From: Gimesia algae
GTDB lineage: Bacteria; Planctomycetota; Planctomycetia; Planctomycetales; Planctomycetaceae
Reading direction: 5' to 3'
DNA: 64,000 nucleotides
Assembly (NCBI RefSeq): GCF_007746795.1
Contig: NZ_CP036343.1
Location: 1,430,531-1,494,530 of the forward strand
Numbering within the stretch: position 1 is the first letter of the stretch; each line of letters begins with the position of its first letter. Of the stretch, positions 17,043 to 62,942 are shown in pieces. The notes under the pieces were generated by a model. It searched no databases, was not told where the DNA came from, and worked only from the letters and a program-made list of their open reading frames with translations. A program made the position numbers and the translations under genes.

Positions 17043-17126
17043 CTAGACTGTGACCAGTTTTACTGTAGCGTCTCCAGAGGCATTTGGATTGAGTAGAATG
17101 GCTTGAGAGATGCTTATAAGATCAAC
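17043..17126 (-). repeat. Palindromic dispersed repeat, copy A
   Basis: Reverse-oriented copy of the four-member repeat family. Read on the minus strand it contains the shared blocks CTACTCAATCCAAATG, GGAGACGCTACAGTAAAACT and, at the outer end, CAGTCTAG. It lies between two convergent stop codons, about 40 bases downstream of the LysM gene and in the same sense as that gene. Its left arm (around 17110-17126) is the most diverged of the four copies. Confidence 0.8.
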
Positions 17127-17166
17127 CGGGTGTGCTCAGAATGTTCCCGGTCGGGCGGGACGCCGC

Positions 17167-18534
17167 TTATGGCAGATTCAGTTTCATTCCGGGACGGATG
17201 TAGTTGGCGTTCTTCAGGAGATCACGATTCTGCTGATAAATTTTAAATGCTGCTGAGCGTTTACCATAGATTCGCACAGCGATGGATTCGAGGGTGTCAC
17301 CCGCCTGAATCGTGTAGGTTTTCGGCTGTGCAGGCTGCTGAGTGGTTGACTCAGTCTGTTCGCCGAACAGATCATCAACGATCTGATCCACATTCTCCGG
17401 TTGAACCTGCGACAAGGAACGACCTGAACCCGAGGAAGATCCATTGCTTTGCGATCCGTTACCAGGTGTAAGGGGAGAGCGGGGTACAGGAATAAATTTT
17501 CGATAGTTTTCCGGAATCTGTTTGATCCCTGCTGGAAGTTTCTCGGTTTGAATCGATTCTTCCAGCTCCTGCATCACCTGTTTCTGATCCAGCTGACCCA
17601 TCGATTTTTGGGAAGGAGTATTGGAGAGCGACTCGATCAATCCTTCAAACTGAACTGTCGAGGAAGATGTATCTGATTTCAAAGTCGGCTGGGAAACCAT
17701 TTGTCCCATCGTCCGCTTCCCGGTCATCACCGGAGATTGCACATTGGTCTGACGATTGGCAGACTGAGGCGTTGTTTCTGGAGCGCGGTAGACCGGAATC
17801 CTCAATTTCATTCCTTCACGAATGTCATTGGGGCTGCGGAGCTGATCACGGTTCAGATTAAAGATCTCACGGTATTTGCGACTGGTCCCCAGATAGTGAA
17901 TCGAAATTTCTGAGAGTGTTTCTCCCGCTTTAACTGTGTGAATCCGGATTTGGGGAGCCGCTGGTTGCACAGGTCTGACAGGTTCCTGTCTCTGTTGTGA
18001 CGGATTTACTTCCCAAGCGTTATTATGCTCGGGCTTGATACTATCGATACCGGTTACCGGCTTCGGCGTTCTGTTTTGTGAAACAGGCTTTGCTTCGGGG
18101 TGAGGCGGATTTGGTTCAAATACTGAATCGGCAGGCTCCGGACTGGAAAACTGCTCTTCAGGTAGATCGACATCTTTCAGGAATTCGGGGATCGGCCCCC
18201 AGCGCTCCGCTTTGGAACCCTTGCCGTTCTGCCCGACAGGAGTAGTATGCGAGATGGTCGGGACGGCAACCTTAGAGCTTTCAGCAGTCCCTCCCTTATC
18301 TGTCAGTCCCGTAAATGCCTGCTCACTTCCCAGTTGTGTTTCCGTTTTTTCTTTCAACTGCGTATCCAGATAGGGAGTGCGGTCCTTGTCCGCAATTTGC
18401 TCATTGAGGTAATGCGGATCATTCAGTTCCGGAATTTGAACCGTCGTATTGCGATCCTGTCTCAGACAGAACGCTGCTACAAAACCAATCACCAGCAGTG
18501 CCAGTGCTAAACCAACTTTTTTATCTTGATGCAT
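17167..18534 (-). CDS. Membrane-anchored protein with two LysM domains
   Basis: A 455-residue protein that begins at ATG 18534 (MHQDKKVGLAL) with GAGG five bases upstream; a longer frame to 18594 is not needed. A single N-terminal membrane segment (residues about 8-25) is followed by a long Pro/Ser/Gln-rich low-complexity linker. Two LysM domains are present: one in the middle, around residues 195-250 (VKAGETLSEISIHYLG), and one at the very C-terminus (IQAGDTLESIAVRIYG ... IRPGMKLNLP). LysM binds N-acetylglucosamine chains, so the protein probably links the envelope to peptidoglycan or other glycans. The ExeA-like ATPase gene lies 272 bases upstream on the same strand. Confidence 0.8.
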   Translation of the reverse strand: MHQDKKVGLALALLVIGFVAAFCLRQDRNTTVQIPELNDPHYLNEQIADKDRTPYLDTQLKEKTETQLGSEQAFTGLTDKGGTAESSKVAVPTISHTTPVGQNGKGSKAERWGPIPEFLKDVDLPEEQFSSPEPADSVFEPNPPHPEAKPVSQNRTPKPVTGIDSIKPEHNNAWEVNPSQQRQEPVRPVQPAAPQIRIHTVKAGETLSEISIHYLGTSRKYREIFNLNRDQLRSPNDIREGMKLRIPVYRAPETTPQSANRQTNVQSPVMTGKRTMGQMVSQPTLKSDTSSSTVQFEGLIESLSNTPSQKSMGQLDQKQVMQELEESIQTEKLPAGIKQIPENYRKFIPVPRSPLTPGNGSQSNGSSSGSGRSLSQVQPENVDQIVDDLFGEQTESTTQQPAQPKTYTIQAGDTLESIAVRIYGKRSAAFKIYQQNRDLLKNANYIRPGMKLNLP

Positions 18535-18806
18535 TTGAACCTCGCCTCGAATGTTACGCTGTGTAATTAGCGTATCGGGCGAAATTCTTTTCAAGAAAAC
18601 CTGATTTTCTCAAGATCGGCTCAGCGCAGGGAGATCACGTCTACATGATCACACTTGAGTCGATCATGCAGAAAATATGGCGAACGGTCGAAACAGACTC
18701 ACCAGTTGATAGGCTTGTAGCAGTTATAGCACCTGGCGAACCGGCAACTGTTATCACATTCCGGGAGTCAGATCCTGTAGCAGGAGGAAACCCGAAACGG
18801 CGTGAT

Positions 18807-20717
18807 TCAGTTCAACTCCTGTTTACGACGCAGGCGGCTGAACAGATTCTTATATCTCCCCAGCGCCGGCCCTTTCAAATGGGCTGTTGCAGACGGCCGG
18901 GTACGGGTCTCGGTCTGTGAATCGATACGGACTGAGTTCCCCGATGGCAAATCGTACTGTTCACTCGAGAAGACCGGGCTTTCCGGTTCTTCATACTCCG
19001 GCTGAACCACATCATAAATCTCCAGTTCCTCTTCAGAAACTTCGATTGATGTCGTTTCAGAATAGTTGCGAATTTCATTCAAGGCGCCGAACAGGCCTTT
19101 ACGGGTTTCTGCACAGACTTCATAGATTTGAGCTGCCAGCAGGTCTTCAAACGAACCGTCTCCTCCGGCGATCTCTCGAGAGAGTTCTTCCAGTACATCT
19201 GAACTCAGATGTTTCAAATCCGCGTTATCGAAGACCATCGTGGGCACATCCGGGATTTCCGCTGCATCCATATCAAAGATTTCTGCAAATTCGGTTAATG
19301 CAGCAGCAGTGGCATCCGGTACGGATTCGATTTCTTCCTGGCTGACCTGTTGCTGTTTTGACACAGACTGAAACTGGGGCGGTCGCAGTTGCAGGGACTG
19401 ATTGATTCTCCCTCGAGTTTCAGCGGGCAGGGTAGCAGGGTCGATGCCTGCATCAATGGCGGCATAGCGGTCAATAATCTCAGTGAATCCGGTATTCAGT
19501 TCCGGTGATGTGACTGTTTCCTTGATTTCCCGCGGTGAAACAGTCGCTTTGACCTGCTCGGGTGCTTCAGGCGGAATTTCCTGCTGATTTTGTACTTGGA
19601 TTACCGCTTCCGCAGACTGTTCCACTTTAGAATCGCTGCCGACTTCAATTGCTTCGATCCCTTCACCAAAGGAAAATAAATCAGCCGAATCCCAACTGGA
19701 GTCTTCGGAAACGGTTTCGGAATCCTCATCCGAAGTTTCCACCAGTTGATTCAACTGATCTTCCAGAACTGAATCAATCTCATATTCTGTCTCATACTCC
19801 ACCATTGATGAGTCTTCAGAGACCTGTTCTGATCTGGAACCGGTCTGGCCTTTACGTAACTCATCTAAAGGAGAAGAAGCGGGCAGGGGGTCATTCCAGT
19901 GTAACGGCAGTTGTTGCAGATCTGTGAAGGCTTCCCGGGCAATTGGTTCATTGACAAGGGGTGAGTCCTGTAAATATGCCAGCATCAGACAGTGATCACA
20001 GATCTGGTTCAGGCAGCGTGGCAGACCATCACTGACATGCGTAATAAATTTGACGGCATCTTCTGTAAAGCAGGTTCGTTTGTCTGGGGAAACACGCTGA
20101 ATTCGATAGGCGATGTAGGACTCAGATTCCTGACGTGTCATTCGGTCCAGATAAACCTGACAGCCGATCCGCTGATTGAGAGAGGACAAGGCAGGTTGAA
20201 TCAATGTTTCTTCCAGAGAGGTCTGTCCGCAGAGCAATAACTGCAACGCCGGTTTACCATCAATGGCAATGTCAGACAGAACACGTAGCTCTTCTAAAAA
20301 CGACACACTCAGGAGATGTGCTTCATCGATGAGCACCAGCAGAGGCTGTCCGTGGATTAAGTATGAGGAACGGACCTCCGCGGTCAATGCCAGCCTTAGT
20401 TCCTGCTCGCTGACTTTCTCATAACAGTCGGTCAGGTTATACAGCAGGGTCTGCAGCAGTGCTCTGACAGTCGGAAAATTACAGTGCTCAACAAACTGAA
20501 CCTGAAACTGATCTTCCAGCCGTGCAATCAACTGGCGGCAGATTGCCGTCTTTCCCGTGCCGGCATCCCCGGTCAGAATCGTGATTCCATTCAGGCTTGA
20601 AATAGTCACCAGTAATTCTTCAAGAACGTGCTGGTGCTCTGCTGCCTCGAAAAAACAGGCAGGTGAAGGTGAAACGGTGAAGGGTCGATCCGTGAACCCA
20701 AAATTTGTTTCGTACAT
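18807..20717 (-). CDS. ExeA/GspA-like AAA ATPase with a long acidic tail
   Basis: A 636-residue protein. ATG 20717 (MYETNFGFTDRPF) is the usual ExeA-family beginning; the six-residue longer start is less likely. Residues about 1-270 form an AAA+/MSHA-biogenesis-type ATPase: Walker A GDAGTGKTA, Walker B LLVLIDEAH, and a C-terminal helical block ending with NQICDHCLMLAYL. In other bacteria this family helps assemble type II secretion or pilus parts across peptidoglycan. After residue 270 comes some 360 residues of acidic, Glu/Ser/Pro-rich, probably disordered sequence with no membrane segment. The LysM gene follows on the same strand, which suits a shared role at the cell wall. No other secretion gene is near. 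Confidence 0.78.
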   Translation of the reverse strand: MYETNFGFTDRPFTVSPSPACFFEAAEHQHVLEELLVTISSLNGITILTGDAGTGKTAICRQLIARLEDQFQVQFVEHCNFPTVRALLQTLLYNLTDCYEKVSEQELRLALTAEVRSSYLIHGQPLLVLIDEAHLLSVSFLEELRVLSDIAIDGKPALQLLLCGQTSLEETLIQPALSSLNQRIGCQVYLDRMTRQESESYIAYRIQRVSPDKRTCFTEDAVKFITHVSDGLPRCLNQICDHCLMLAYLQDSPLVNEPIAREAFTDLQQLPLHWNDPLPASSPLDELRKGQTGSRSEQVSEDSSMVEYETEYEIDSVLEDQLNQLVETSDEDSETVSEDSSWDSADLFSFGEGIEAIEVGSDSKVEQSAEAVIQVQNQQEIPPEAPEQVKATVSPREIKETVTSPELNTGFTEIIDRYAAIDAGIDPATLPAETRGRINQSLQLRPPQFQSVSKQQQVSQEEIESVPDATAAALTEFAEIFDMDAAEIPDVPTMVFDNADLKHLSSDVLEELSREIAGGDGSFEDLLAAQIYEVCAETRKGLFGALNEIRNYSETTSIEVSEEELEIYDVVQPEYEEPESPVFSSEQYDLPSGNSVRIDSQTETRTRPSATAHLKGPALGRYKNLFSRLRRKQELN

Positions 20718-21342
20718 TTCCAATAACCTTTTCACGTATTTATTGCATCAGTTCCCGAGGGAGACTGGAGTTTTGATTCTGAACGGAGGAACAGAACGTG
20801 CAGCGCATCTCTCATCATGATTGATCCTGTTCTGTATGAACAATTCATCGAACAGGTTATGGTCTCTTCTTGAGTATTACCAATACAATCGACAGTATCT
20901 GATCAGGGTCCCTCAGGCGCATTACCCAAACCATAGATCTTGACATCCACCAGCCTCTTAGAAACGAGACATTACTGTTTAAATAGAATGGGTAACCTGA
21001 CCGCAAAACGAAAAGAACTGGATGATATCGATTCCCGAAACCAATTGATTCCAGACAATACCGGAGGGATCCTGAAGAATTTCCATATCACACAACTCTT
21101 TTATTTCTCTTTATTTACGAAAATCCCTCAGTTTAGAAGCAACTCTCTCCTTTCTCTTACCGGATTGCTGGAGTAGACTTTATATCTCAGCGGAAGCAGA
21201 CCGGTTCTAGCTGCTCGTTACCGTCTCGGTTTTATTGAACTTTTCATTGACTTCAGTGTAGCGAAATACAAATTTACCTGTCATTATTTTCAAGCTCTGA
21301 AATGTTTTCCTTAGGTCTCAGGAGGCGCACGTAGAAATTCTG
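20718..21342. promoter_or_regulatory. Divergent region between the ExeA-like gene and the phoH cluster
   Basis: A 625-bp space with no convincing gene. Toward phoH a weak promoter can be drawn: TTGACT at 21247-21252 and TACAAA at 21268-21273, spacing 15. A perfect AGGAGG lies at 21320-21325. On the other strand nothing clear is seen for the ATPase gene. Short open frames here lack a start context or similarity to anything I know. Confidence 0.35.
21320..21325 (+). promoter_or_regulatory. Perfect AGGAGG site unusually far from the phoH ATG
   Basis: AGGAGG ends 17 bases before the ATG at 21343, whereas 5-10 bases is usual. An in-frame ATT at 21337 would have the right distance. Either the site acts at long range, or the purine run belongs to another control element. 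Confidence 0.4.
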
Positions 21343-22308
21343 ATGTCAGAAGCCACTCTTTCCTTTTCTGATCCTGATCAGATTCCCATATTACTGGGGA
21401 CGCACGACTGTCATATACGACTCATTCAGGATGCACTGGGCATCGACGTCGTTCATCGAGGCGATGAACTTCGAATCATCGGGGATGATGCCCAGATCCA
21501 GAAGTCACTCCGTATTTTCTCTGAACTGAGGGCGATCGTTGAAAACACGAAACAACTGAAAAGTGAGCAGGTACAAACCGCGCTCTCCAACGGGAACTCA
21601 ACTGGGAAACAGTCCAAGCAGGCTCCCATCGCCACGCCTTCTTCGATTGATCTCTTTGAGAAAACCAAAAAGGTACATCCCAGAACGCCAGGCCAGTCAG
21701 ACTACATCAAGAACATTGCAGAACACGATCTTGTACTTTGTACAGGCCCTGCCGGCTGTGGTAAAACGTTTCTGGCAGTCGCCATGGCGATCAATGCATT
21801 GCGGACCGAACAGGTTCGCAAGATTGTGCTCGTGCGTCCTGCGGTCGAAGCGGGCGAAAAACTGGGCTTTCTCCCGGGGGACATGCTGGCAAAAGTGAAC
21901 CCGTTTTTACGTCCGCTGCTGGATGCGCTCGGCAGTCTACTCGACTACGATCAGGTCAGTCGATATATGGAAAATGATATCGTCGAGGTTGTCCCTCTGG
22001 CTTTCATGCGCGGGCGAACTCTGGATAATACATTCATTATCATGGATGAAGCACAAAACTCGACGGTCACCCAGATGAAAATGTTCCTGACCCGGATGGG
22101 CATGGGCTCTAAAATCGTGGTCACCGGAGATATTTCACAAATTGACTTACCACCTGACGTTGCCTGCGGCATGACAGACGCCATCGATCGCCTGCGAAAC
22201 ATTAAAGGTGTGGGAGTCACTCAATTAAAAAACGAAGATATCGTGAGACACAGACTGGTCGGTGAAATCGTGAAGGCCTACCAGAACGAAGACACTCTCG
22301 TACAGTAA
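21343..22308 (+). CDS. phoH: PhoH-like ATPase
   Basis: A 321-residue PhoH-family P-loop protein (YbeZ type). An N-terminal KH-like segment (residues about 15-70, IPILLGTHDCHIRLIQDALG) precedes the ATPase: Walker A GPAGCGKTF at about residue 135, VRPAVEAGEKLGFLPGD, Walker B FIIMDEAQN and the GDISQIDLP motif. Family members act in RNA metabolism together with YbeY. This gene heads the conserved set phoH-yqfF-ybeY-corC, all on the plus strand with short gaps, so it is most likely the first gene of that operon. Its perfect ribosome-binding sequence lies unusually far upstream (17 bases). Confidence 0.93.
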   Translation: MSEATLSFSDPDQIPILLGTHDCHIRLIQDALGIDVVHRGDELRIIGDDAQIQKSLRIFSELRAIVENTKQLKSEQVQTALSNGNSTGKQSKQAPIATPSSIDLFEKTKKVHPRTPGQSDYIKNIAEHDLVLCTGPAGCGKTFLAVAMAINALRTEQVRKIVLVRPAVEAGEKLGFLPGDMLAKVNPFLRPLLDALGSLLDYDQVSRYMENDIVEVVPLAFMRGRTLDNTFIIMDEAQNSTVTQMKMFLTRMGMGSKIVVTGDISQIDLPPDVACGMTDAIDRLRNIKGVGVTQLKNEDIVRHRLVGEIVKAYQNEDTLVQ

Positions 22309-22360
22309 ATCTCATCCGCTTCCCTCGTTTTTTTATTCCAGATCATCTCAGGTTACTTTC

Positions 22361-24691
22361 ATGGCTTTTTTTGGCTCAAAGAAATCCCGAACTGCACTTG
22401 CTGCCAGTTTGCGCGATTCCTCCAAATTGAGTTCAAGATTGCGCGAATTGTTGAGTAACCGGGGGACACTCTCTCGCTTGAGTGTCTGCCTGTTGACAAT
22501 TCTGATTCTGATGGTGGCAGTAGAAAGCTGGAAAGCCCCGTTCCCCTATCGACTGGGCATGTTTTTCGAACATGGGATCGTGGCGAATTCCACGTTCAAA
22601 GTCGCCAATCCCATCGAGACAGACCGGCAACGGACCCAGAAAGAATCGGAAGTCCCCTATTACTTCAAACATAACCCGAACCTGATCGACAAGCTGCCAG
22701 AATTGCTGAAGGATGATCTGATCGCGATTGCCAATGCCAAATCCCTGGATGAACTGAATACTGACATCCGGGCTGAACTGGGGCTCACTCCGTCCCGCCG
22801 ACTGGAACAGTTTAGAGACCAGTTTCCGGAAGAACCAGAGCAGACCTTTGCTGAACTGAAATCGCTGGTCAGCAGTCCTGATTCCAAAGATACTCAAAAA
22901 ATCAAAGACCTGATCGACGACTTCAAAAAGCTGATCGCGCCACTGTCGGACTTTGGGATTGTGAATGAGAATGATCTGGCCCAAAACCAGATCAGGATCT
23001 ACGATGATAAGATTACCATCATCAATGATGTCACTAACGAGGAGAAAAAAGTCACCCCCTTTGACATTCGTCTGCCTGATCAACTGTCAGCAAACGGGGT
23101 CATCGGCCTGCCATTGGAAACCAATGTCTACAAGCGCCTGGTCCCCCTGAAGGAAGTACTTTCCCACTGGATTCATTTCCAGGCCCCCACCACTCTGGTT
23201 TACGATCCCCAGAGGACGCTCGAGGAACGCAATCAGGCCAGAAATCAGGTGGAAGAAATCTTTGACACCTTTCAGCGTGGCACTATTCTGGTGGAGCCAG
23301 GTCAGCTAATCGACGACAACCAACTGGCTTTGCTGCGAGCGGAATACGAAGCCAAGGAAAAAAAAGTCCCGAGTTATGAACGGGGCATTCGCATTACGAT
23401 CATCTTTCTCATGCTGGTCGTCCTGGCGGTCCTGAATGGATATCATCTGCTGCGAAACAAAAAAGCGGTTGCCAGAACAGTCAGTCGGTTAAGTATCTAT
23501 TTAAGCGTGATCATTCTGACCATTTTCCTGGCCCGCCTGCTTTCCTATGACCCCTGGCGTGCCGAAGTGCTGCCGCTGGTTGCGACAGTCATGGTGTTTG
23601 CAATTGTCTACGACCAGATGATGGCCATTCTGACTGCTTTATCCCTGTCTCTCGTGATTTGTCTGTCAACAGGAGGGTCACTGGGACATTTCGTCGTGCT
23701 GATGAGTGTCTCTGCCGTTGCTGTGACATCCCTGGGGAACGTCTCATCCCGTTCCACCCTGATCAAGCTGGGCTTCGGCATGGGACTGACTTACTTCCTG
23801 GTCTACTGGGGGATCAACCTGATCAATAATCAGGAGCTCTCGAACGATTTCTTTGATCAGCAGATCGTCTGGGAAAGTCTACAAGGAGCAGGGTGGTGCC
23901 TGGCTGCCGGATATCTGGTCGCGGGCAGCCTGCCTTTCATTGAATCCCTGTTTGGCGTCGTCACCGATATCAGCCTTTTGGAAATGAGTAATGTCTCCCA
24001 TCCGCTGCTGCAGGAACTGGTGCGTCGCGCCCCCGGTACTTATAACCATTCCATTTCCGTCGCTACGATCGGAGAGGCTGCTGCAGACAAAATTGGCGCC
24101 AATGGACTGCTGGTTCGCGTTGCCGCCTATTATCATGATATCGGAAAAATGTTGAAGCCTCAGTACTTCATTGAAAATATGGTTCAGGGCAGTGAAAGTC
24201 TGCACGACAACCTCGCCCCGGCAATGAGCACATTAATTATCATCGGTCATGTGAAAGATGGCGTCGACCTGGCCCGTCAGCACAACCTGCCTCAACCGAT
24301 TATCGATTTTATTGAACAGCATCATGGAACTACTCTGGTAGAATACTTCTTCCGCGAAGCAGAAAAGCAGGCGGATCTCAGCCCGGACCACAAAACCGAC
24401 GCTGAAGAATCGTCGTTCCGCTACCCAGGCCCGAGACCTCAGACCAGGGAAGCGGGGGTCATGATGCTCTCCGACGCCGTCGAAAGTGCCAGCCGCACCC
24501 TGAGTGATCCAACGCCGAAACGCATCAAGTCGCTGGTACATTCACTCGTCATGAAACGACTGCTCGATGGGCAGTTTAATGAATGTTCACTCACTTTAAG
24601 TGAAATTAATGTTGTGGAAGAATCACTGGTAAAATCCCTGATCGGTATTTACCACGGACGAATTAAATATCCGGAAGAGCGCTCCGCTTAA
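22361..24691 (+). CDS. 7TM-HD phosphohydrolase (YqfF/PgpH family)
   Basis: A 776-residue membrane enzyme. One N-terminal membrane helix (residues about 40-56) is followed by an extracytoplasmic 7TMR-HDED-type domain, then a bundle of about seven hydrophobic helices between residues about 340 and 560. The cytoplasmic HD domain follows, with YNHSISVATIGEAAA and the core H592-D-I-G-K. The C-terminal LSDAVESASRTL is also typical. PgpH of Listeria, of this family, degrades cyclic-di-AMP, and the same activity is a fair guess here. The gene sits 52 bases after phoH and 18 bases before ybeY, the order seen in many bacteria. Confidence 0.92.
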   Translation: MAFFGSKKSRTALAASLRDSSKLSSRLRELLSNRGTLSRLSVCLLTILILMVAVESWKAPFPYRLGMFFEHGIVANSTFKVANPIETDRQRTQKESEVPYYFKHNPNLIDKLPELLKDDLIAIANAKSLDELNTDIRAELGLTPSRRLEQFRDQFPEEPEQTFAELKSLVSSPDSKDTQKIKDLIDDFKKLIAPLSDFGIVNENDLAQNQIRIYDDKITIINDVTNEEKKVTPFDIRLPDQLSANGVIGLPLETNVYKRLVPLKEVLSHWIHFQAPTTLVYDPQRTLEERNQARNQVEEIFDTFQRGTILVEPGQLIDDNQLALLRAEYEAKEKKVPSYERGIRITIIFLMLVVLAVLNGYHLLRNKKAVARTVSRLSIYLSVIILTIFLARLLSYDPWRAEVLPLVATVMVFAIVYDQMMAILTALSLSLVICLSTGGSLGHFVVLMSVSAVAVTSLGNVSSRSTLIKLGFGMGLTYFLVYWGINLINNQELSNDFFDQQIVWESLQGAGWCLAAGYLVAGSLPFIESLFGVVTDISLLEMSNVSHPLLQELVRRAPGTYNHSISVATIGEAAADKIGANGLLVRVAAYYHDIGKMLKPQYFIENMVQGSESLHDNLAPAMSTLIIIGHVKDGVDLARQHNLPQPIIDFIEQHHGTTLVEYFFREAEKQADLSPDHKTDAEESSFRYPGPRPQTREAGVMMLSDAVESASRTLSDPTPKRIKSLVHSLVMKRLLDGQFNECSLTLSEINVVEESLVKSLIGIYHGRIKYPEERSA

Positions 24692-24709
24692 TCCCCGATA
24701 GAAAATGGA

Positions 24710-25207
24710 ATGAATACAATAGACCAGTTCCAGATCGAGATCCAGAACTCACAAACACAACTCGCCATCGACGAACAACAGCTGAAAACAGCAATCAGTT
24801 TTCTGCTGCAGTCCGAACAGGTAAACCAGGCCGAAATCAGTCTGGCCATCGTTGACAATCCGACCATCCGCCAGCTGAATCAACAATATCTGCAGCATGA
24901 TTACGACACGGATGTTTTGAGTTTTCTGCTGGATTGCGACACCGTAATGGATTCTACCCAACTGGAATACCGTGGAGCTGGTAAGCAGATTGAAGGGGAA
25001 ATTATCGTATCCGCGGAAATGGCACTGGCGATGTCTGCAGAATACCAATGGCCCGCAGAACAGGAACTCCTGCTGTATGTGATCCATGGATTGCTGCATT
25101 TATGTGGTTATGACGACCTCACGGAAGAAGAACTGCGCATCATGCGTCAACGTGAGCAACAGATCTTCGACCACTGGCAGACCTCAATTCCCAGACGCGA
25201 AGAGTGA
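24710..25207 (+). CDS. ybeY: Endoribonuclease YbeY (variant metal motif)
   Basis: A 165-residue YbeY/UPF0054 protein that in other bacteria takes part in 16S rRNA 3'-end maturation and ribosome quality control. The family blocks are present: LNQQYLQHDYDTDVLSF and EIIVSAEMA. The zinc motif, normally HGxLHLxGYDH, here reads H126-G-L-L-H130-L-C-G-Y-D-D136, so the third histidine is replaced by aspartate. Asp can bind zinc, so activity need not be lost. Overall length and context (between the 7TM-HD gene and the corC-like gene, after phoH) are those of a functional ybeY. Confidence 0.92.
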   Translation: MNTIDQFQIEIQNSQTQLAIDEQQLKTAISFLLQSEQVNQAEISLAIVDNPTIRQLNQQYLQHDYDTDVLSFLLDCDTVMDSTQLEYRGAGKQIEGEIIVSAEMALAMSAEYQWPAEQELLLYVIHGLLHLCGYDDLTEEELRIMRQREQQIFDHWQTSIPRREE

Positions 25208-25320
25208 AAACAGATGATTGAGAATGACACCTGGAATAATTACCAGTATAACTATAATGCGATTCTGTCAGTGAAACAGAACCGGTTTCGAAACATTTTA
25301 TCTGAACGTTTACAAGACTT

Positions 25321-26631: not shown

Positions 26632-26649
26632 CAGAAATCCCTATACTGC

Positions 26650-27747: not shown

Positions 27748-27982
27748 CAAACTACAAAAGGGGCTGCAAATCAATAACTCAACGCATTTTATCAGTCGAA
27801 CCAGGCCCTGCAAATGCCCCCCTTTGAGAATCTTCAGGTTCGAACTACCTGAAAACAGTGAGTTTGCAGCATAAGTAAAAATAGGGGGTCTACTTAGATA
27901 TTTCTTATTGAAGTTACTCTACCGGTTATGCCGATAACGTTGATATCGATCCTTTCTATCTTCATCCCATGGGAACTTTCTG

Positions 27983-29173: not shown

Positions 29174-29264
29174 TCCCACCGCTCAGAAGCCGATATTAAG
29201 TATTGCGGTTTTATGAGCACTCCCAACCTATCCGATCTTAGATTCCAGTGCTCTGACGAAAAAC

Positions 29265-29270: not shown

Positions 29271-29278
29271 CTGCTACA

Positions 29279-31543: not shown

Positions 31544-31917
31544 ATCGGGAACATTACTGAATCTGGGAATAGTTGATTAACGAGAACATCCAGTGAGTTC
31601 AAGAGGATGACCCTGTCGGTCTGCAGTGAACTCACTAAAAAGAAACAAAAACAGTTCCGACATCATATTCTTATTTTGGTCTGTGAATCAAGCCTATACT
31701 CTACAGAAGCCAAAAGACGAGTAGTCTGTCAGTCTGGAATTGACAGCGGATCAATTTCAGGTAAGCACGCCAACGAGCGTGCGGTCTATTTCGGCCAACG
31801 TGCCATTCCAGATCTGATAAGAAACTAGACCGCATCACATTTCACCATAACGTCTCTCAACCCATTATACTCGATCCAAATGGCTCTGGAGACGCTACAG
31901 TAAAAACTGGATACAGT
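31544..31917. other. Intergenic region with repeat copy B
   Basis: This 374-bp stretch between a minus-strand start and a minus-strand stop holds the promoter side of the Gfo/Idh-like gene and repeat copy B in its right quarter. A 73-codon frame that runs into the repeat was seen, but it has no start context and is not counted as a gene. Confidence 0.5.
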
Positions 31918-31921
31918 CTAG
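31825..31921 (+). repeat. Palindromic dispersed repeat, copy B
   Basis: The most symmetrical of four related copies, 97 bp long. It begins with CTAGAC and ends with GTCTAG. The two arms of about 33 bases are imperfect inverted repeats; the inner pairing is CGTCTC with GAGACG. The spacer carries the shared TATACTCGATCCAAATGG. The end of the repeat supplies the TAG stop codon (31918-31920, minus strand) of the CaCA exchanger gene. Confidence 0.85.
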
Positions 31922-34603: not shown

Positions 34604-34699
34604 CTAGAGCGCGTCACATTTAACCATAGCGTCTCTCAATCTAATATACTCGGTCCAAATGGACCTGGGAACGCTACAGTAAAACTGGACACAGTCTAA
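34604..34699 (+). repeat. Palindromic dispersed repeat, copy C
   Basis: A 96-bp copy of the same family. It starts with CTAGAGCGCGTCACATTT and ends with GGACACAGTCTAA. The inner arms AGCGTCTC and GGAACGCT pair less well than in copies B and D. It lies 75 bases downstream of the LOR/SDH stop codon, in the same sense, and ends 22 bases before the cupin start codon. Confidence 0.85.
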
Positions 34700-52288: not shown

Positions 52289-52569
52289 GTCAACTTCCAG
52301 ATGAATGGTGAGGATTTATAGAATGGCAGTCGGTCGGTACAATTTCTCTATCATGAACGATGCAGAGACCTGTCGCAATTGTTAATCCACTGATTGTAAC
52401 AGCCAGCCGGGAAATGATTCCAACCGGAGTGAATTTCATTTTTTCTAATCTGCTGGAAGTAATTTCTCATCCGCGTCGGTAAAATAAAATCTTGAGTCAT
52501 CGATTCATCCAAAACAGTCTCAAGATTGAAGAACCTCAGACCCCTGTATAATTGAGCTTCAGAGGTATT

Positions 52570-55500: not shown

Positions 55501-58500
55501 GCCAACAAAGAGCTGGGGACCGCCAGTTTTGTGATCCCTCCCCGCAAAACTACACAACGGTTTCTCGTTTATTACCAGATCAGTCCGGACGGCAAAACAA
55601 ACGCGGCCTACAACGCTCCCAATCTCTCAGTACCAGACTCGCTGCAGACACAACTGATCCCGGGACCATCTCGCTGGACCGAAATACTCATTACCAAAGG
55701 AGTCCTCAGCCAGCAGAATGCTCCTTATGTAATCGACACGCTTACCATTCCGCATAAAAACCCGTACCGCGCGCTCTTCTTTATCAGTGGTCACGACTTC
55801 CTGGATAATGGAGACCTGGCGGTTTCAACCGTGCATGGCGATATCTGGCTGGTCAGAGGCGTTGACGCTGATTTAAGCGAATTGAAGTGGAAGCGTTTTG
55901 CTACCGGACTTTTTCAGCCACTGGGGCTGAAAGTCATCAACAACAAGATTCATGTATTAGGCCGCGATCAGATCACGATCCTGCATGACCAGAATCTGGA
56001 TGGCGAAGCCGACTTCTATGAATGCTTCAACAATCAGATCCCGACATCCGTGGGTGGTCACGATTATGTAACCTGCCTTGAGACTGATTCCTTCGGGAAC
56101 TTTTATTTTATGCACGCTCAGCAGGGGGTCATGCAGATCAGCCGGAATGGTAAACGTCTCAATCAGATTGCATCCGGCTTTCGCAATCCCAACGGTATGG
56201 GGATGGGCCCCGGCAATATTATCACCGCATCCCCCCAGGAGGGGAACTGGACTCCAGCTTCCAGCATCATAGAAGTAAAACAAGGAGGCTACTACGGCTT
56301 TGGTGGTTCACAGATCACGCCGGACAGACCGTTGGGATATGATCCCCCATTATGCTGGATCCCGCGACTGCAGGATAACTCCAGTGGCGGACAGGTCTGG
56401 GTGACCAGTCGGGAATGGGGACCGCTGGAAAATCAGTTATTACATTTGTCTTACGGGCAAAGTAAACTGCTACTCACATTGCGGGAAGTCATTGCGGACC
56501 AATCGCAGGGGGGCACACTCACACTGCCGCTCGAGTTTGAGTCGGGAATCATGCGGGGACGCTTCAGCCCCGAAGATGGGCAGCTTTACGTCAGTGGTTT
56601 GAGAGGCTGGGTAACGAATGCGGTCCGAGACGGTTGCCTGCAACGCGTGCGCTACACTGGAAAACCCGTCCACCTGCCTGTCGCAGTCAAAACCATGCAG
56701 AATGGAATTGCTTTGACGTTTACGAACCCATTGGATCATCAAACGGCTGAGAACCCCGATAATTACGCTATTGAACAATGGAATTATCTCTGGTCACAAA
56801 ACTACGGTTCGCCGGAATATCGCGTTTCCGCTCCCCAGACCGCAGGTCGTGATGAAGTCGAAGTCATCTCTGCCACGTTGTTGCCTGACCAACGCACGGT
56901 TTTCCTGGAGTTGTCTCGTGTCATTCCCGTGATGCAGATGGGAATCACCTGGCAGTTAACCAGCCAGTCTGGTGAAACATTAAAACAGACCTATTATCAT
57001 ACGATCAATTCGGTTTCGTCCCGTAAAATGGAAGAATCTATATTGGTCCGTCGTCAGAAAAATGAACTACTCACAGCAACTCAGGTGCAACAGTTAAAAC
57101 CAGGAGTTCTCTGGCGGTTTAAACAGAATCAGTCAACCGGTTCGACCGTGACTGATGCACGCAGCAACCGTCTGCTGGCTTTGTCTGTAAGCCCTGCAGA
57201 ACCAGCCACGCCTTTTCTGAAACCGGGCCGTTTTTCTGCCACCGCCGAAGTCTATTTGCGCGTCCCCATTCCCGGTGAATACGAATTGAGTCTGGAGGGT
57301 TTGGGAACTGCCCGTTTAAAAGTCAATCAAAATCAAATTTTTCAGATAACCGGTACAGACTTCAAACAGTCTGCCCCCGTACCCGTTCATTTAAAAAAAG
57401 GGTTTAATCAATTGCAGCTGGACTACCAGAGCCAACCTGATGGTCGTGCCCGGTTAAGATTACTCTGGAAAGGCGAGAATTTTGCGACGGAACCAATCCT
57501 GCCTCAACTTTTGAGCCACACAGGTAATGACGTCCAGTTGCTGGAACGACAGCAGATCCGCCAAGGACGCGAACTGCTCGCGCAATTTCAATGTCTGGCC
57601 TGCCATACACTGCCGGGCGAAGATCTTTCATTCTCGCTTGCCCGGCTGCAGGCAGACAAACTCCTTTCAGAAGGCACAGCGATGCCTGAATTATCGCAGT
57701 CTGCGCCAGATTTGAAGAATATCGGGACGCGTGTGACAAAACGCTGGTTATTTCACTGGCTGTTAAATCCACATAATTTACGAGCACATTCCAATATGCC
57801 CTCCTTATTGGGTGATCCCGCTGAAAAGTTGACCATTCAGAAGGCAGCCGACTTAACCGCCTGGTTTGTGTCCCAGGCTCAGAAACCTGTCATTGACTAT
57901 CCAGAAACACAATATGACACAGCGGAAACCGATCCAGAGAAATTACTGTCTGCAGGAGCAAAGTCGTACGAAGTTCTGGGTTGTATCAACTGCCATCACT
58001 TTTCTGTTAGCGAGGAGCCAGATGAATACCAACGACACTCACTTGCCTTAATCAAACGTAAATTCACCATTTCCCAGTTGGTACGTTTCCTGAAATCACC
58101 CCATGAACATTACCTTTGGAGTCGCATGCCTGACTTCAAATTGTCAAATCGGGAAGCAGCCGGCCTCGCCGCTTATCTTATCGAGAATTCCAAAGGAAAA
58201 ATTCCGAAAGCAATGATTCCCCCAGCCGGTTCAGCGAACCGGGGTAAGACACTGTTTGATATATTGAGATGTGTTCAATGTCACTCTTCGCCCCATGAAC
58301 CACCACTGGGTGCTACTGAATTCCAGGCAGTTCCCATCAGCGTCCAGTCACTTACGGTGGGGTGTCTTGCTGAAACAGATCAGCGACCTGCTTCCGCCCC
58401 CACCTTCTCATTTGGTCCGGAACAACGTTCTGCAATTCAGGCTGTACTAAAAACCGAATCAGACTCCCTGTTCAGACGGAGCGATACTGAGACTGCTGCA

Positions 58501-59175
58501 AGGTGGTTTCATCAGTTAAACTGTTCCGCCTGTCACACCAGAGATTCTGCCTCCAGTCCACGTGCCTTGATTGTCGTCGAAGAAGGGGAGTCGGGCTTAC
58601 CTCCGGAACCCTTGCCGAGCCTGACATGGGCGGGTGAAAAATTGAAACCACACTGGTCCCAAAATTTTATTGGTGGACAGCTCCCCTGGCGTCCCCGTCC
58701 CTGGTTGAAATCCAGAATGCCTGCTTTTCCAGCGCACGCGGCGCTGCTGGCGCGAGGAATGGCGGCCGAGCATGGAATGCGCAATCACACATCTCCCAAG
58801 AACTCCAGTTCTGAACACACACAGCCAGAAATACAAATTCAACTGGGTAATCAGTTGACTGCGAAAAGCGCGCTCGACTGCCGTCAGTGCCATGGTGTCG
58901 GAGACAGCTTGCCAACTGGCGATGAGAAAACAAAAATTGCACCGGGGATAAATTTCGTGCACATCAGAGAACGTCTCAACGATGATTACTATCGGCGGTT
59001 TATTCTCGATCCACCGCGATTTGATATATCCTCAAAAATGCCCCGTCTGTCTGCAGACGGAAAAACAACAAAAATCACACATATTCTGGATGGAGACGCC
59101 CCCCTGCAGTTTCAGGCCATTTGGCGGTACATCCAGAGTCTGGATGAATCATCACGTTCTTTCAGAGACAACTGA
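52570..59175 (+). CDS. Giant secreted multidomain protein: two ThuA-like domains, LamG, beta-propeller and five heme motifs
   Basis: A 2201-residue exported protein from ATG 52570, with AGAGG five bases upstream (TTG 52552 adds six residues). After a signal peptide come a ThuA-like domain (about 30-285), a second ThuA-like domain (about 310-545), a LamG/concanavalin domain (about 550-720), a DUF6797-like region (about 770-940) and a sorbosone/glucose-dehydrogenase-like beta-propeller (about 1040-1360). A PA14-like module is at about 1550-1645. The C-terminus has five CxxCH heme motifs: CLACH (1675), CINCH (1805), CVQCH (1901), CSACH (1985) and CRQCH (2104). The layout suggests sugar binding and oxidation with electron transfer. 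No gene of this exact form is known to me outside planctomycetes and relatives. Confidence 0.85.
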   Translation: MILRYLVGLLLVLCLPAMSILSAQLPQNESSDRHKIVLIAGPKSHGPVGNGIHDYPWSVKLLKVMLDNSNIRDTVQVEYHLDGWPENPETLNDADTIMIISDGRDGEKFAEAPHFANAAHLKQIQQQIDRGCGFLTFHFSTFAPDQYAKQIQNWSGGYFDWEENGKRNWYSAIKTLKAPVTLPEPKHPICRGVEPFELREEFYYNIRFQPADQQLTTLLEVSELKGRPENGNIVAWAKERSQGGRGFGTTCGHFYDNWQNAAFRKFILNAIAWTANIDVPKNGVEAPYYTHAEISTALAGIQGTEPALIDTEPIRVLLFAGNEAHAWHNWKKTTPVIKQQLERDPRIKVDLTNDIEDLSKKDLQDYQVIVQNYTNWHDKTPLSETSRNAFMNYLQQGGGLILIHFANGAFHFSLPQAGESDWPEYRKIVRRVWNHHGKGEQKSGHDAFGEFTVQITDATHPLTRNLQDFPVTDELYFRQDGTEPVEALITARSKVTKNKEPLAWTYRYGKGRIFQTLLGHSEKTYDSFAATEMLRRATAWAARRPIQEFDPSPAVEVKPVRKDTLVPGKWGNALNANAGSYLSKSAVGLLDHRPLSAEGWVRLNSKTSFNILLACDPKSATAHWEMYSYAGSGFFSVYLPGQGGEFKTGINICDDEWHYVAMILEDSRLRLYVDGKQALNSKLPKRKSTEPAEHNIAFGRLVENRLGCDGLLDDFRISKEIRDFTVVPIAPLKQDENTLFLLSFDFPDKIKISDRSEPEKSVRVETAATEKERDHWGKDAVGFDQPMEETSDNRWQQTEIGGWLACIVPLPTGPVKKGLSIRVGENQAATICYDTAHGKVRGIWSNGFLKPSPERFGLIRAPTPVGQIHFSTAEGPGWRQKYQFVGSHVNQNRVTLEYRIGETTIYESPWFKSSTEGTCFTRAFEIGPGKEELNLIVADASEVESVENHPQRMITTNQNSPVLIGCIGGEEIQSHISANKELGTASFVIPPRKTTQRFLVYYQISPDGKTNAAYNAPNLSVPDSLQTQLIPGPSRWTEILITKGVLSQQNAPYVIDTLTIPHKNPYRALFFISGHDFLDNGDLAVSTVHGDIWLVRGVDADLSELKWKRFATGLFQPLGLKVINNKIHVLGRDQITILHDQNLDGEADFYECFNNQIPTSVGGHDYVTCLETDSFGNFYFMHAQQGVMQISRNGKRLNQIASGFRNPNGMGMGPGNIITASPQEGNWTPASSIIEVKQGGYYGFGGSQITPDRPLGYDPPLCWIPRLQDNSSGGQVWVTSREWGPLENQLLHLSYGQSKLLLTLREVIADQSQGGTLTLPLEFESGIMRGRFSPEDGQLYVSGLRGWVTNAVRDGCLQRVRYTGKPVHLPVAVKTMQNGIALTFTNPLDHQTAENPDNYAIEQWNYLWSQNYGSPEYRVSAPQTAGRDEVEVISATLLPDQRTVFLELSRVIPVMQMGITWQLTSQSGETLKQTYYHTINSVSSRKMEESILVRRQKNELLTATQVQQLKPGVLWRFKQNQSTGSTVTDARSNRLLALSVSPAEPATPFLKPGRFSATAEVYLRVPIPGEYELSLEGLGTARLKVNQNQIFQITGTDFKQSAPVPVHLKKGFNQLQLDYQSQPDGRARLRLLWKGENFATEPILPQLLSHTGNDVQLLERQQIRQGRELLAQFQCLACHTLPGEDLSFSLARLQADKLLSEGTAMPELSQSAPDLKNIGTRVTKRWLFHWLLNPHNLRAHSNMPSLLGDPAEKLTIQKAADLTAWFVSQAQKPVIDYPETQYDTAETDPEKLLSAGAKSYEVLGCINCHHFSVSEEPDEYQRHSLALIKRKFTISQLVRFLKSPHEHYLWSRMPDFKLSNREAAGLAAYLIENSKGKIPKAMIPPAGSANRGKTLFDILRCVQCHSSPHEPPLGATEFQAVPISVQSLTVGCLAETDQRPASAPTFSFGPEQRSAIQAVLKTESDSLFRRSDTETAARWFHQLNCSACHTRDSASSPRALIVVEEGESGLPPEPLPSLTWAGEKLKPHWSQNFIGGQLPWRPRPWLKSRMPAFPAHAALLARGMAAEHGMRNHTSPKNSSSEHTQPEIQIQLGNQLTAKSALDCRQCHGVGDSLPTGDEKTKIAPGINFVHIRERLNDDYYRRFILDPPRFDISSKMPRLSADGKTTKITHILDGDAPLQFQAIWRYIQSLDESSRSFRDN

Positions 59176-59213
59176 AGCTGTACTTCCGATCTTATGACTC
59201 CAGGATAAAAAAG

Positions 59214-60062
59214 ATGACACGTTACATCAGAACTTCACATGGTTCCCGCAATTCTTCATTTAAGATGCGGCTCATCATCGCAGTCGGCATCGCCCTGTTC
59301 AGTTTCATATCCTATCTGATGAAGTCAGATGTCAATGAAATCACGGGAGAGAATCAGCGGGTTGCTTTAACAGAGCAGCAGGAAATCGCTTTAGGTCTGC
59401 AGGCGTTGCCTGCCATTCTGCAGCAACATCACGGAGAGCACCCGGACCAACAGGCCCAGGAGTATGTCGATCGTGTCGGACGCCGACTGCTTGACAGTTT
59501 CAATGATGCCCTTGCAAAAGAGGGACGTCATAACCCTTATCGCTTTAACTTTCATCTGCTCAAAGATAACCAGGTGATCAATGCGTTCGCATTACCGGGA
59601 GGGCAGATCTTCATTACCGCTGCCTTGTACAATCAACTGGAAACAGAAGGACAACTGGCCGGTGTACTCGGACACGAAATTGGGCATGTTCTCTCTCGAC
59701 ATGGCGCACAACAGATGGCGAAACAGGAACTGACACAAGGACTGGCGGGCGCTGCGGGGGTAGCAGGGGGTGACGTCAGCAGCGCCAGGATGGCGGCAAT
59801 GGTCGGATCAATGGTGAATATGAAATATGGCAGAAATGATGAACTCGAATCGGACCGCTGGGGCATCAAACTCATGGTCATGGCTGGGTACGATCCACAC
59901 GCTATGATCGCCGTGATGGATATCTTGAAACGCTCTGCTGGTCCCGGAAAACAACCGGAAATCTTCAGCACCCATCCCGATCCCGGAAACCGTATTGAGC
60001 GCATCAATCATTTCATCCAGCAGGCCTTTCCGTCCGGCTTGCCCCCTGATCTCGAACCCTGA
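59214..60062 (+). CDS. M48-family zinc metalloprotease, membrane-anchored
   Basis: A 282-residue peptidase with a single N-terminal membrane segment (residues about 19-35) so that the protease domain faces outward. The zinc site is H154-E-I-G-H158 with ELESD at 210-214 supplying the third ligand. The conserved INAFALPGGQIF precedes it. A glycine/alanine-rich stretch lies between the two parts of the zinc site. The C-terminal HPDPGNRIERI is typical of M48 proteins of the BepA/LoiP type, which act on outer-membrane proteins. It starts 38 bases after the giant cytochrome gene, so the two may be co-transcribed. The stop codon is inside a stem-loop at 60059-60079. Confidence 0.88.
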   Translation: MTRYIRTSHGSRNSSFKMRLIIAVGIALFSFISYLMKSDVNEITGENQRVALTEQQEIALGLQALPAILQQHHGEHPDQQAQEYVDRVGRRLLDSFNDALAKEGRHNPYRFNFHLLKDNQVINAFALPGGQIFITAALYNQLETEGQLAGVLGHEIGHVLSRHGAQQMAKQELTQGLAGAAGVAGGDVSSARMAAMVGSMVNMKYGRNDELESDRWGIKLMVMAGYDPHAMIAVMDILKRSAGPGKQPEIFSTHPDPGNRIERINHFIQQAFPSGLPPDLEP

Positions 60063-60079
60063 GTTCGGACTGAACTCAG
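60059..60079 (+). terminator. Stem-loop overlapping the M48 gene stop codon
   Basis: CTGAGTTC (60059-60066) pairs perfectly with GAACTCAG (60072-60079) around the loop GGACT. The stop codon TGA at 60060-60062 is in the left arm. No T-run follows, so it may be an mRNA-end stabiliser or only part of a terminator. Confidence 0.4.
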
Positions 60080-60174
60080 AACTTGAAATAGCAGAAATAC
60101 CGGGGAAATCACGTTAAATGACAAGACCTTGTAGTGCTCCTGAACAAAACATCTGATAGAAACAGGATAGTGAA

Positions 60175-60202
60175 TTGACTTTGTCTGAGGATAAGTTAAA
60201 AT
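60175..60202 (+). promoter_or_regulatory. Candidate sigma-70-type promoter upstream of rho
   Basis: TTGACT (60175-60180) and TAAAAT (60197-60202) are each one base away from consensus and have a spacing of 16. It would start a leader of about 1 kb ahead of rho, or serve an unseen RNA. Confidence 0.4.
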
Positions 60203-60998
60203 ATGTCTAGAACGAGCTGGCGATACGATTAGTATTGACGCTATGAGATAGTTTTGATAAACACTACTAACTAAGACATCTCAGGAAAGCCGTTTTTCAA
60301 TGAGGATCTCCCCCCGCTTTTTGAGATCAATAACCCACCAATCAGTACAAAGAAATCACTGATTACCCAATTGGCTTTTATGTATGTGAGTCGTGTCCGG
60401 CGGGGCTTTAGTCTTCATTGGCACCACCCTTGATTAGATCTGGGCGGTCGCCTGTTTCTTGAAAGTAATTGCTCTTTCATGTTCGCGCTGAAGGATATTC
60501 AGGTATCTGAACCAGTTGCAAAACTACCAGACCAGATCACTGGCTATAAACATTATCTTCGGAAGGTTCTCTGCCTGCTGTTTCTGTTTTGTTGAAATGA
60601 CATCAGAAGGCCGCCTAAATCTTTTCACCGTTTCGTCACCATTTATCGACGACAACTGAGTGAAAACTGATTCCAGCACGAGTTAGTAAAACATTTAAAA
60701 GTTCCTTATTAGCAACCATTTATCGGTTGACGGAACCTGATAGAAACGATTGAATTCTAGTAACAGTTTTTGACCACAATAATTTTGCCTGAAAGGATAT
60801 CGGCAAGACGATCACCCTGTAAGAGGCATTCGTCAACAAGCTTGTCAAAGCAATCTGTTCTCAATGCCTGGGCTAAATCTCTTTACTGTTTCAAAAGCGA
60901 TTGTCCTATGAGTTGGAATATTCAGGCCAAGATGGTCGAGTCCACAGATGGGCGAGTTATTCCACTGTGTGAGTCTTTTTTCAAGAGATCAGGCCTAC

Positions 60999-61017
60999 GC
61001 CAGTTTCGTTAACTGGC
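60999..61017. other. Short perfect hairpin in the rho upstream region
   Basis: GCCAGTT (60999-61005) pairs with AACTGGC (61011-61017) around the loop TCGTT. It is followed by no T-run. It may be a leader hairpin of rho. Confidence 0.3.
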
Positions 61018-61210
61018 ATTGATCTGGTTTTCTCTGGATAAAGAGTCGGCACGTTCAGAAGTATGCCAGCAGCATTCAAGTATCATTGCAGGCTCTCTGC
61101 TGCCAATGATTCAGGCTTGAAGCATTTGTCTGTCACTTCGTTACTCGTTCATGCCGTAGTTGTGTCTCTAATTATTTCGTAACAATTTTATAAACATTTG
61201 GTGTTTCTGT

Positions 61211-62851
61211 ATGGCCGCTAAAAGTTCTGAAACTTCAGACAAACCCAAACCTGCACGTCGCAAAACGACTAAACCACGAAAAAAAGTAGAACGCGCGACG
61301 GAGGACACTGTAGAGAAAAGTGAGACCGACGCCCTGCAGGATGAGTACCATCGCAAGGCCGAAGAAAACCTCGAAATGTTCGAAAAATCTCATTCATCCC
61401 CGAGCGATGCAGAACCTGAAAGAGAACCCGCAAGCATGTCAGACACCTCTTCTGAATCCACAGGCGACAATAACACAAACCGTGCAGACGGTGATCAGTC
61501 ATCCGACAAAACCGGAGGCAATCGTCGCAGAAGAAGGCGTAGAAGAAAATCAGACGGCACGACCAGTCAGGGACCAGGACGACAGGGGCAAGGTGGCCAA
61601 AACAACCAGGGTGGAGGTAACCGAGGCCGTGCCAACTCCAACAACCGCGGCGGAAATCGTTCGCGATCAGGTGGGAATGCCGGAGGCAACAGAACACAAA
61701 CCCGCAGACCACGCTCGAATACTCCTGTCGATGAAAACATATCAGGAACGATTGAAGGGGTACTCGAATTACACCCCAAAGCTTACGGTTTTATCAGAGA
61801 CCCTAAATCCAATTACAAAGCGCAGGATTCAGATGCTTTTGTTTCCAGTTCTCTGATCGAAAAACATAACCTGCGAGAAGGTATTCTGATTCGCGGCGAA
61901 GTGGGACCTGGTACTCGCGGTCAAGGCCCCCGGCTCAAATCCATTGAGACCATTGATGGCCGGACCATTGAAGAATACCTGAAAATCAAATCGTTCGATG
62001 AGCTGACTCCCATTAATCCGTTTGAACAGATCAAACTGGAAACGGGTCCGATGCCAATCACAATGCGGATTATGGATATGCTGACGCCCATCGGCAAAGG
62101 CCAGCGTGCACTGGTTGTGGCTCCGCCTCGAACCGGTAAAACAATGCTGCTGCAGGATATCGCAGAAGCGGTCAGTACCAATCATCCCGAAATCCGTCTG
62201 ATGGTGCTCCTGATTGACGAGCGCCCTGAAGAAGTCACGGAAATGCAGCGTTCAATCAAAGGTGAAGTCATCTCATCTTCAATGGACCGCGATGTCGAAA
62301 GCCACGTTCGCACGAGTCAACTGATTTTTGAACGCGGAAAGCGACTGGCCGAAGCAGGCGAAGACGCCTTTATTCTTCTGGACAGTATCACCCGGACCGC
62401 TCGTGCATTTAACAAATGGGTGGGAAATACCGGACGTACCATGAGTGGTGGTCTGGATGTGAAAGCCATGGATATTCCCAAAAAGATGTTCGGAACTGCC
62501 CGTCGCTTTGATGAGGGTGGATCCCTGACGGTACTGGGGACCGCATTGATCGATACGGGCAGCCGTATGGATGAAGTGATCTTTCAGGAGTTCAAAGGAA
62601 CTGGCAACATGGAAATGGTTCTCAGCCGGGAACTGTCCGACCGCCGTATCTTTCCTTCGATTGACATTACACTCTCCGGAACCCGCCGTGAGGAAAAAAT
62701 CCTGGCCCCCGATGTGCTGGAAGGCGTCACACTGCTCCGCCGCAGCCTGATTTCCCTGAACCCGGTCGAAGCCATGGAACAACTCAGTAGTACCCTCAAG
62801 AAATTCCCGAGCAACAAAGAATTTCTGGAAAAGATCCGCGCCATCCTGTAG
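61211..62851 (+). CDS. rho: Transcription termination factor Rho with a long basic N-terminus
   Basis: A 546-residue RNA-dependent helicase that ends transcription. The catalytic part is normal: cold-shock-like RNA-binding domain with YGFIRDPKSNY at about 195, Walker A APPRTGKTM at about 304, LLIDERPEEVTEM and DSITRTARAFN, and the C-terminal RREEKIL. Compared with the 419-residue E. coli protein there are about 127 extra residues at the N-terminus: a charged Lys/Glu part and then a run rich in Arg, Gly, Asn and Gln (residues about 97-175, including eight Arg in a row). This is likely disordered and may bind RNA or phase separate, as in some actinobacterial Rho. Repeat copy D begins one base after the stop codon. 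Confidence 0.95.
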   Translation: MAAKSSETSDKPKPARRKTTKPRKKVERATEDTVEKSETDALQDEYHRKAEENLEMFEKSHSSPSDAEPEREPASMSDTSSESTGDNNTNRADGDQSSDKTGGNRRRRRRRRKSDGTTSQGPGRQGQGGQNNQGGGNRGRANSNNRGGNRSRSGGNAGGNRTQTRRPRSNTPVDENISGTIEGVLELHPKAYGFIRDPKSNYKAQDSDAFVSSSLIEKHNLREGILIRGEVGPGTRGQGPRLKSIETIDGRTIEEYLKIKSFDELTPINPFEQIKLETGPMPITMRIMDMLTPIGKGQRALVVAPPRTGKTMLLQDIAEAVSTNHPEIRLMVLLIDERPEEVTEMQRSIKGEVISSSMDRDVESHVRTSQLIFERGKRLAEAGEDAFILLDSITRTARAFNKWVGNTGRTMSGGLDVKAMDIPKKMFGTARRFDEGGSLTVLGTALIDTGSRMDEVIFQEFKGTGNMEMVLSRELSDRRIFPSIDITLSGTRREEKILAPDVLEGVTLLRRSLISLNPVEAMEQLSSTLKKFPSNKEFLEKIRAIL

Positions 62852-62942
62852 GCGCATCACATTTGATCATAGCGTCTCTCAATCTATTAGACTCGGTCCA
62901 AATAGCTCTGAAGACGCTAAAGTAAAACTGGATACAGTCTAA
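62852..62942 (+). repeat. Palindromic dispersed repeat, copy D
   Basis: A 91-bp copy that begins one base before CGCATCACATTT, directly after the rho stop codon, and ends with GGATACAGTCTAAG. The inner arms AGCGTCT and AGACGCT pair over seven bases. It lies in the same sense as rho and is the first structure a rho transcript would meet after its stop codon. Confidence 0.85.

Follow-up and report, generated by a model that had tools for sequence, protein, structure and literature searches.

MITE-1 is a family of dispersed palindromic elements of 94 bp that is present in hundreds of copies on the chromosome of Gimesia algae. We came to it through four copies (A to D) in a stretch of 64,000 nucleotides (contig NZ_CP036343.1, positions 1430531-1494530; hereafter the window), and the name stands for the family of these copies. 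All evidence considered, MITE-1 is very probably a high-copy family of miniature inverted-repeat transposable elements (MITEs) that is moved in trans by a transposase which inserts at TA, mostly within YTAR and best at CTAG, and duplicates the TA. The genomes directly show how many copies of MITE-1 there are and where they end, that insertion duplicates 2 bp, that relatives have empty sites and differ in the sites occupied, and that the copies lie between genes without orientation bias. A preliminary description of the window had proposed either a non-autonomous mobile element or a structured RNA or mRNA 3'-end element. The former is strongly supported by the copies in their hundreds, the empty sites, the duplication of 2 bp and the turnover from species to species. 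Literature searches, with subscription papers and ISfinder outside their reach, found no published description of MITE-1. Below, G000 is the host genome and other G numbers are its relatives.

A large family with a defined anatomy

The host chromosome is a single contig of 7,929,454 bp. A 20-base pattern from the end of the element (up to 3 mismatches) had 272 matches across these 7.93 Mb (149 forward, 123 reverse) compared to 5 for the reversed control, so that the further copies on which the preliminary description had made its proposal depend exist in their hundreds and far beyond chance. With a profile we then obtained 59 matches in a sample of 1.2 Mb (positions 1-400000 and 860001-1660000), which represent 58 copies because one was scored on both strands, and none in reversed sequence; 54 of the 59 matches were near full length. 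If this density is extrapolated, the whole genome would carry ca. 380 copies. Individual copies diverge from the consensus by 2% to 35% (median 10%), a spread which suggests that the family has expanded over a long time.

MITE-1 is composed of a 90-bp core with TA on each side and has imperfect terminal inverted repeats (TIRs) of ca. 29 bp (GAGCGCATCACATTTAACCATAGCGTCTC and GACTGTGTCCAGTTTTACTGTAGCGTCTC). Its length, its lack of coding capacity and these arms agree with a published definition of bacterial MITEs, i.e., 70-300 bp without coding capacity and with TIRs of 15-30 bp (PMC3733652). Read in the direction of copy B, the element typically takes the form C-TA-[GAGCGCATCACATTTAACCATAGCGTCTC ... 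GAGACGCTACAGTAAAACTGGACACAGTC]-TA-G/A, and the target reads Y-TA-R for 48 of the 58 sampled copies (CTAG 19, TTAG 17, TTAA 6, CTAA 6; others 10). The duplicated bases are TA and not the whole CTAG that had been likened to target duplications of some IS5-group elements. One arm is somewhat better kept than the other (mean identity of 0.93 for alignment columns 1-31 vs 0.88 for columns 64-94).

The four window copies are present as described and can be aligned over ca. 94 bp, with limits that we refined to include the flanking TAs (Table 1). Copy B indeed ends in CTAGAC and GTCTAG. As for the identical stretches said to be shared by all copies, TCCAAAT is found in all four while CTACAGTAAAACTGG is exact only in A and C; in this region copy B has one additional A, and copy D reads CTAAAGT. 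Copy A is recognisable to ca. 17114, beyond which it has decayed and its far limit is extrapolated.

Table 1. Positions of MITE-1 copies and adjoining features in the window.
Feature	Position	Strand	Basis and remarks
MITE-2 copy	16937..17045	+	second dispersed element of ca. 109-114 bp; shares a TA with copy A, at which the two are joined
MITE-1 copy A	17044..17137 (end approximate)	+ (strand reading TAGACTGTGTCC...)	profile match to model positions 1-71, and alignment
MITE-1 copy B	31826..31920	-	full length, 95 bp with an additional base; profile and alignment
MITE-1 copy C	34605..34698	-	full length, 94 bp; profile
rho-like gene	61211-62851		its stop codon is the start of copy D
MITE-1 copy D	62849..62941	-	93 bp; profile; its first three bases, TAG, double as stop codon of the rho-like gene

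Empty sites and turnover between species

To follow the presence of individual copies, we called a site empty when its flanks lay no more than 40 bp apart and held no profile match, and we compared the host with 400 kb each of G031 (17 copies) and G033 (19 copies). In the host, the G031 copies corresponded to 7 occupied and 9 empty sites with 1 unresolved, and the G033 copies to 5 occupied and 9 empty sites with 2 unresolved and 3 without synteny. In the other direction, 38 of the 58 sampled host copies fell beyond the compared stretch or lacked synteny in G031/G033, and the remaining 20 were 5 occupied, 10 empty and 5 unresolved in G031 and 3, 12 and 5 in G033. The two relatives differ from each other in the same manner (6 occupied and 8 empty of 17; 6 and 9 of 19 in reverse). 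Across the three genomes, 56-80% of resolved sites are thus empty.

There are 22 tight junction comparisons, which cover 14 distinct elements in the three genomes. Exactly 2 bases separate the flanks at the empty site in 18 of them, 1 base in three and 3 bases in one, so that the comparison with close relatives suggested in the preliminary description came out as expected for a mobile element. These bases are TA in 9 cases, TG in 5, TAA in 1 and others in 7, and the full pattern of TA-element-TA against a plain TA is seen in 3 of the 22. The many dispersed copies, the duplicated target and the sites left empty in relatives are all features expected of a MITE.

The window copies illustrate this turnover. 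The distance between the flanks of copy A and its MITE-2 neighbor is more than 220 bp in the host, compared to 24 bp in G031 and 31 bp in G033. All 17 genomes of the genus, host counted, have sequence syntenic to the stretch around copies B and C. At the site of copy B, G031 has a decayed copy and G034 a bare CTAG; copy C is absent at base level in G031 and G033, and its flanks are ca. 85-105 bp closer in 12 further genomes that have both flanks (G034 and G036 gave no flanks). Copy D is common to G031 and G033 and has an empty site in G034. Elsewhere, a tandem pair of the host is a single copy in G033, which indicates that a tandem can form when a new copy inserts next to the end of an older one.

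Placement between genes and at stop codons

According to gene calls from a codon-score script that assigned ca. 75% of the sequence as coding, each of the 58 sampled copies lies between genes. They are distributed over tandem, divergent and convergent gaps (29/19/10) much as intergenic length predicts (ca. 32/18/8), and they have no preferred orientation relative to tandem genes (15 in the same and 14 in the opposite direction).

We observed a modest excess of copies with an exact end at the TAG stop codon of a gene, 8 of 58. Free sites, for which both TAG and TAA stops were counted, coincide with a stop less often: 4 of 133 for non-coding CTAG (Fisher p 0.008), 53 of 1143 for CTAG/TTAG/CTAA (p 0.007) and 131 of 2414 for YTAR (p 0.014). 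An insertion into a TAG or TAA stop does not alter the protein, as the TA followed by the first base of the element, a G, again reads TAG. We saw this for copies B (at a Na/Ca exchanger family gene) and D (at the rho-like gene): five relatives that lack D (G034, G024, G030, G032 and G027) have a native rho stop, TAA or TAG, at the same residue, and for the gene at copy B the alignment with G034 reads TAG at the same place. The other six stop-codon insertions may have been equally neutral, or the element itself could be the source of the stop.

Structured RNA or folded DNA as alternative readings

Alternatively, MITE-1 might be a structured RNA on the minus strand or an mRNA 3'-end element, such as a terminator or an RNase III or stability hairpin, maintained by selection. 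Copy B folds much better on the minus strand (-50.3 kcal/mol, z -7.8) than on the plus strand (-23.6 kcal/mol, z -3.8), though z for the minus-type strand varies across copies (B -7.8, C -4.5, D -2.4, A -0.95). The preliminary description had pointed out that many arm mismatches are C opposite A and would become G-U pairs on the opposite strand, and the consensus bears this out with 21 Watson-Crick pairs, 6 minus-strand G.T pairs, 4 others and no A.C among 31 arm positions. Single changes at consensus pairs lead to G.T in 67 cases, to A.C in 45 and to other combinations in 97, a slight asymmetry among copies that are not independent.

The test for compensatory changes that had been suggested gave a weakly positive result when compared to shuffles and a mixed one when compared to register slides. 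It was made on 40 diverse copies picked from the retrieved sequences. In these, 90.5% of cells pair, a level attained by 5 of 500 shuffles; both sides change at 6 pairs, which 4 of 500 shuffles match, and 18 of 500 shuffles reach the covariation score. However, both-sided change amounts to just 7 cells, sliding the register by +1 and +3 gives 9 and 10, and the copies share ancestry. RNAalifold on the diverse set predicted a different and weaker structure of 15 pairs. Conservation at syntenic sites is likewise mixed: copy D is 83% identical to its G033 counterpart compared to 55% for the intergenic flank, but against G031 neither B (71% vs 75% for non-coding flank) nor D (75% vs 85%) stands out, so that two of three comparisons show no extra conservation. 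Furthermore, there is no orientation bias and no gene-end preference apart from the stop codons, the window has no Rfam match, and copies A and C are missing from both G031 and G033. Despite some weak hints in its favor, the RNA or 3'-end reading is not supported and we consider it very unlikely.

A slightly less improbable, though still doubtful, variant would be that the transposase acts on the folded single minus strand as its substrate or that the element serves as an RNA guide or decoy, as might be suggested by the one-sided G.T pairs, the constant length of 94 bp and the CCATTTGGA centre that is kept in two genera. If true, MITE-1 would duplicate TA as a MITE but be recognised in a strand-specific manner, unlike an ordinary element with double-stranded TIRs.

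MITE-1 among known families of small repeats

The preliminary description had also called the copies REP-like. Repetitive extragenic palindromes (REPs) and REPINs are moved by RAYTs, i.e., Y1 transposases of the HUH type, whose single-strand insertion is not known to make a target duplication. MITE-1 resembles them in being a dispersed, palindromic, intergenic, high-copy and strand-asymmetric sequence, and the host genome has four Y1_Tnp matches. However, MITE-1 insertion makes a 2-bp TA duplication, and even with 6 mismatches allowed, no end of MITE-1 was found in the four host Y1 loci, which extend 1.5 kb to either side of the genes. REPs are reported in Planctomycetes, which would favor the REP reading, but their length is given as 20-40 bp, far short of the 94 bp of MITE-1 (PMC3733652). 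Compared by description, the REP label is a poor fit in length, target duplication and the lack of ends near Y1 genes, and we regard movement by a RAYT as extremely improbable.

Better counterparts are found among the TA-duplicating bacterial MITEs RUP of Streptococcus, NEMIS/Correia of Neisseria, and ERIC. Going by their generally known features, these share with MITE-1 a noncoding inverted repeat of ca. 100 bp, up to hundreds of copies, TA duplication, mostly intergenic placement and mobilisation in trans. MITE-1 differs from them in its planctomycete host and in that no resident autonomous partner with its right end was found. RUP and NEMIS have been named as MITEs (PMC3733652).

Candidate mobilisers

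Movement of MITE-1 would be by cut-and-paste, in trans, through a DDE transposase encoded elsewhere that inserts the element at TA, mostly within YTAR and best at CTAG, and duplicates the TA. A scan limited to 8 flanking proteins of the window found no transposase among them, in line with the preliminary description. The most likely class of mobiliser, to which we give about an even chance, is that of resident IS5/IS427-type insertion sequences (ISs). These elements of ca. 930 bp, which we presume to be of the IS427 class, were detected through DUF4096 in 12 of the 17 genomes of the genus (the DDE_Tnp_1_2 model has no host match, though DUF4096 detects the IS5-type genes). Their TIRs (GAGGTAGTTTCAAAAC and similar) mostly start with GAGG or GAAG in a setting of C/T-TA...TA-G/A, with ends not located for some single-copy loci. 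The pointer to the IS5 group in the preliminary description is plausible because the elements of the genus lie in C-TA-GA...TC-TA-G, and MITE-1 has the same TA duplication in CTAG-like targets, flanking TAs, GA start and TC end. Unlike MITE-1, they are ca. 930 bp long and carry a transposase gene, and the likeness of the ends beyond the tip is weak. Two of the six host copies with a 154-amino acid frame adjoin a MITE-1 copy (L003, L005).

As next in rank, MITE-1 could instead be moved by an IS630/Tc1-mariner transposase, a possible but less likely alternative. A TA target with TA duplication is a hallmark of this family (PMC2170065), and MITE-1 shows both. The host has remnants of an IS630 gene at 6.79 Mb, where an IS5/IS427-type element is inserted at CTAG within an IS630-like transposase gene (L061, G000:C1:6791423-6794968). 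However, none of 19 NF033545 matches in the host is over the cut-off, and only two of these loci have a right-end match, both weak and unconvincing as shared ends (5 of 22 bases wrong at L074 and 6 of 22 at L066; both loci contain transposase-like genes). The IS5/IS427-type copies, in comparison, are multiple and have equal or near-equal scores.

Several observations weigh against MITE-1 as a TA-duplicating element mobilised in trans. Both flanking TAs are intact in just 27 of 58 copies, with ends partly extrapolated, and 13 of the 22 tight empty sites differ from plain TA. Neither was a full-length transposon with the same ends found, which the preliminary description had suggested looking for. 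Our search with an exact 14-base right-end pattern and a non-MITE interior found no autonomous partner in the 17 genomes of the genus, two of which are less than 80% complete; the left end was not searched. The pattern occurred at 11 places in 4 of the 17 genomes, of which seven, read by eye and with no family search, showed no transposase-like frame and four are MITE interior shifted by an indel. The match of MITE-1 to ten IS427-type ends is weak, as shuffles do as well in 5.75% of cases for the left end and 86% for the right. Finally, counts of IS427-type genes do not track MITE-1 (G031 1, G033 2, G032 24).

Composite arrays and MITE-2

The MITE-2 element next to copy A has GTG tips and lies in a CTAG setting. 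Five of its six copies in the 1.2-Mb sample are joined to MITE-1 copies; further loci are L004, L234, L027, L064, L250, L253, L258 and L014 in the host and L181, L046 and L056 in relatives. Some clustering is expected since up to 67 MITE-1 ends read CTAG compared to 133 free non-coding CTAG sites. Given the G...C tips of MITE-1, each insertion at CTAG would regenerate CTAG at both junctions and could provide two new targets of the preferred kind, in agreement with the tandem copies of MITE-1 and with the arrays that combine it with MITE-2 and IS5-type elements. At G000:C1:5078040-5078318, three MITE-1 copies lie head to tail at ca. 92-bp spacing with shared TAs.

Distribution across genomes

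Matches to our model R1 were found in 18 of 170 genomes of the family Planctomycetaceae, comprising all 17 of the genus and one of another genus (G081). This search scored 25 candidates per genome, and counts of 25 are lower bounds. With 150 candidates scored, G081 has 33 matches that form a distinct subfamily, likewise of 94 bp; 25 aligned copies have C before and mostly A after the element. An exact 27-base pattern occurred in 46 stretches of a contig collection, all from records titled Gimesia or Planctomycetaceae metagenome-assembled genome, in a scan from whose results single-contig genomes of the genus are absent and which may leave out records near the host. Neither the 72,556 plasmid records nor the 50,697 phage records that were searched had a match to MITE-1. 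A viral contig with a match to a 19-base pattern was rejected as chance when judged by the profile.

Four genomes have a single match each, G027 (L042), G028 (L040), G029 (L039) and G037 (L044). One conserved place for these lone copies was considered and rejected, as only G028 and G037 share a locus. The G029 copy matches the reference copy at 88 of 94 positions, whereas identity to the host is 67-81% across syntenic stretches of this genome. That this copy is closer to the host family than the DNA around it suggests either transfer between species or constraint on a master copy.

Implications

MITE-1 adds a well-documented MITE family for the Planctomycetes. Its placement suggests a simple rule for harmless build-up, in which the G...C tips regenerate CTAG at the junctions and TAG at stop codons. 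The family thereby offers a testable case of how small elements can reach hundreds of copies without damage to genes.

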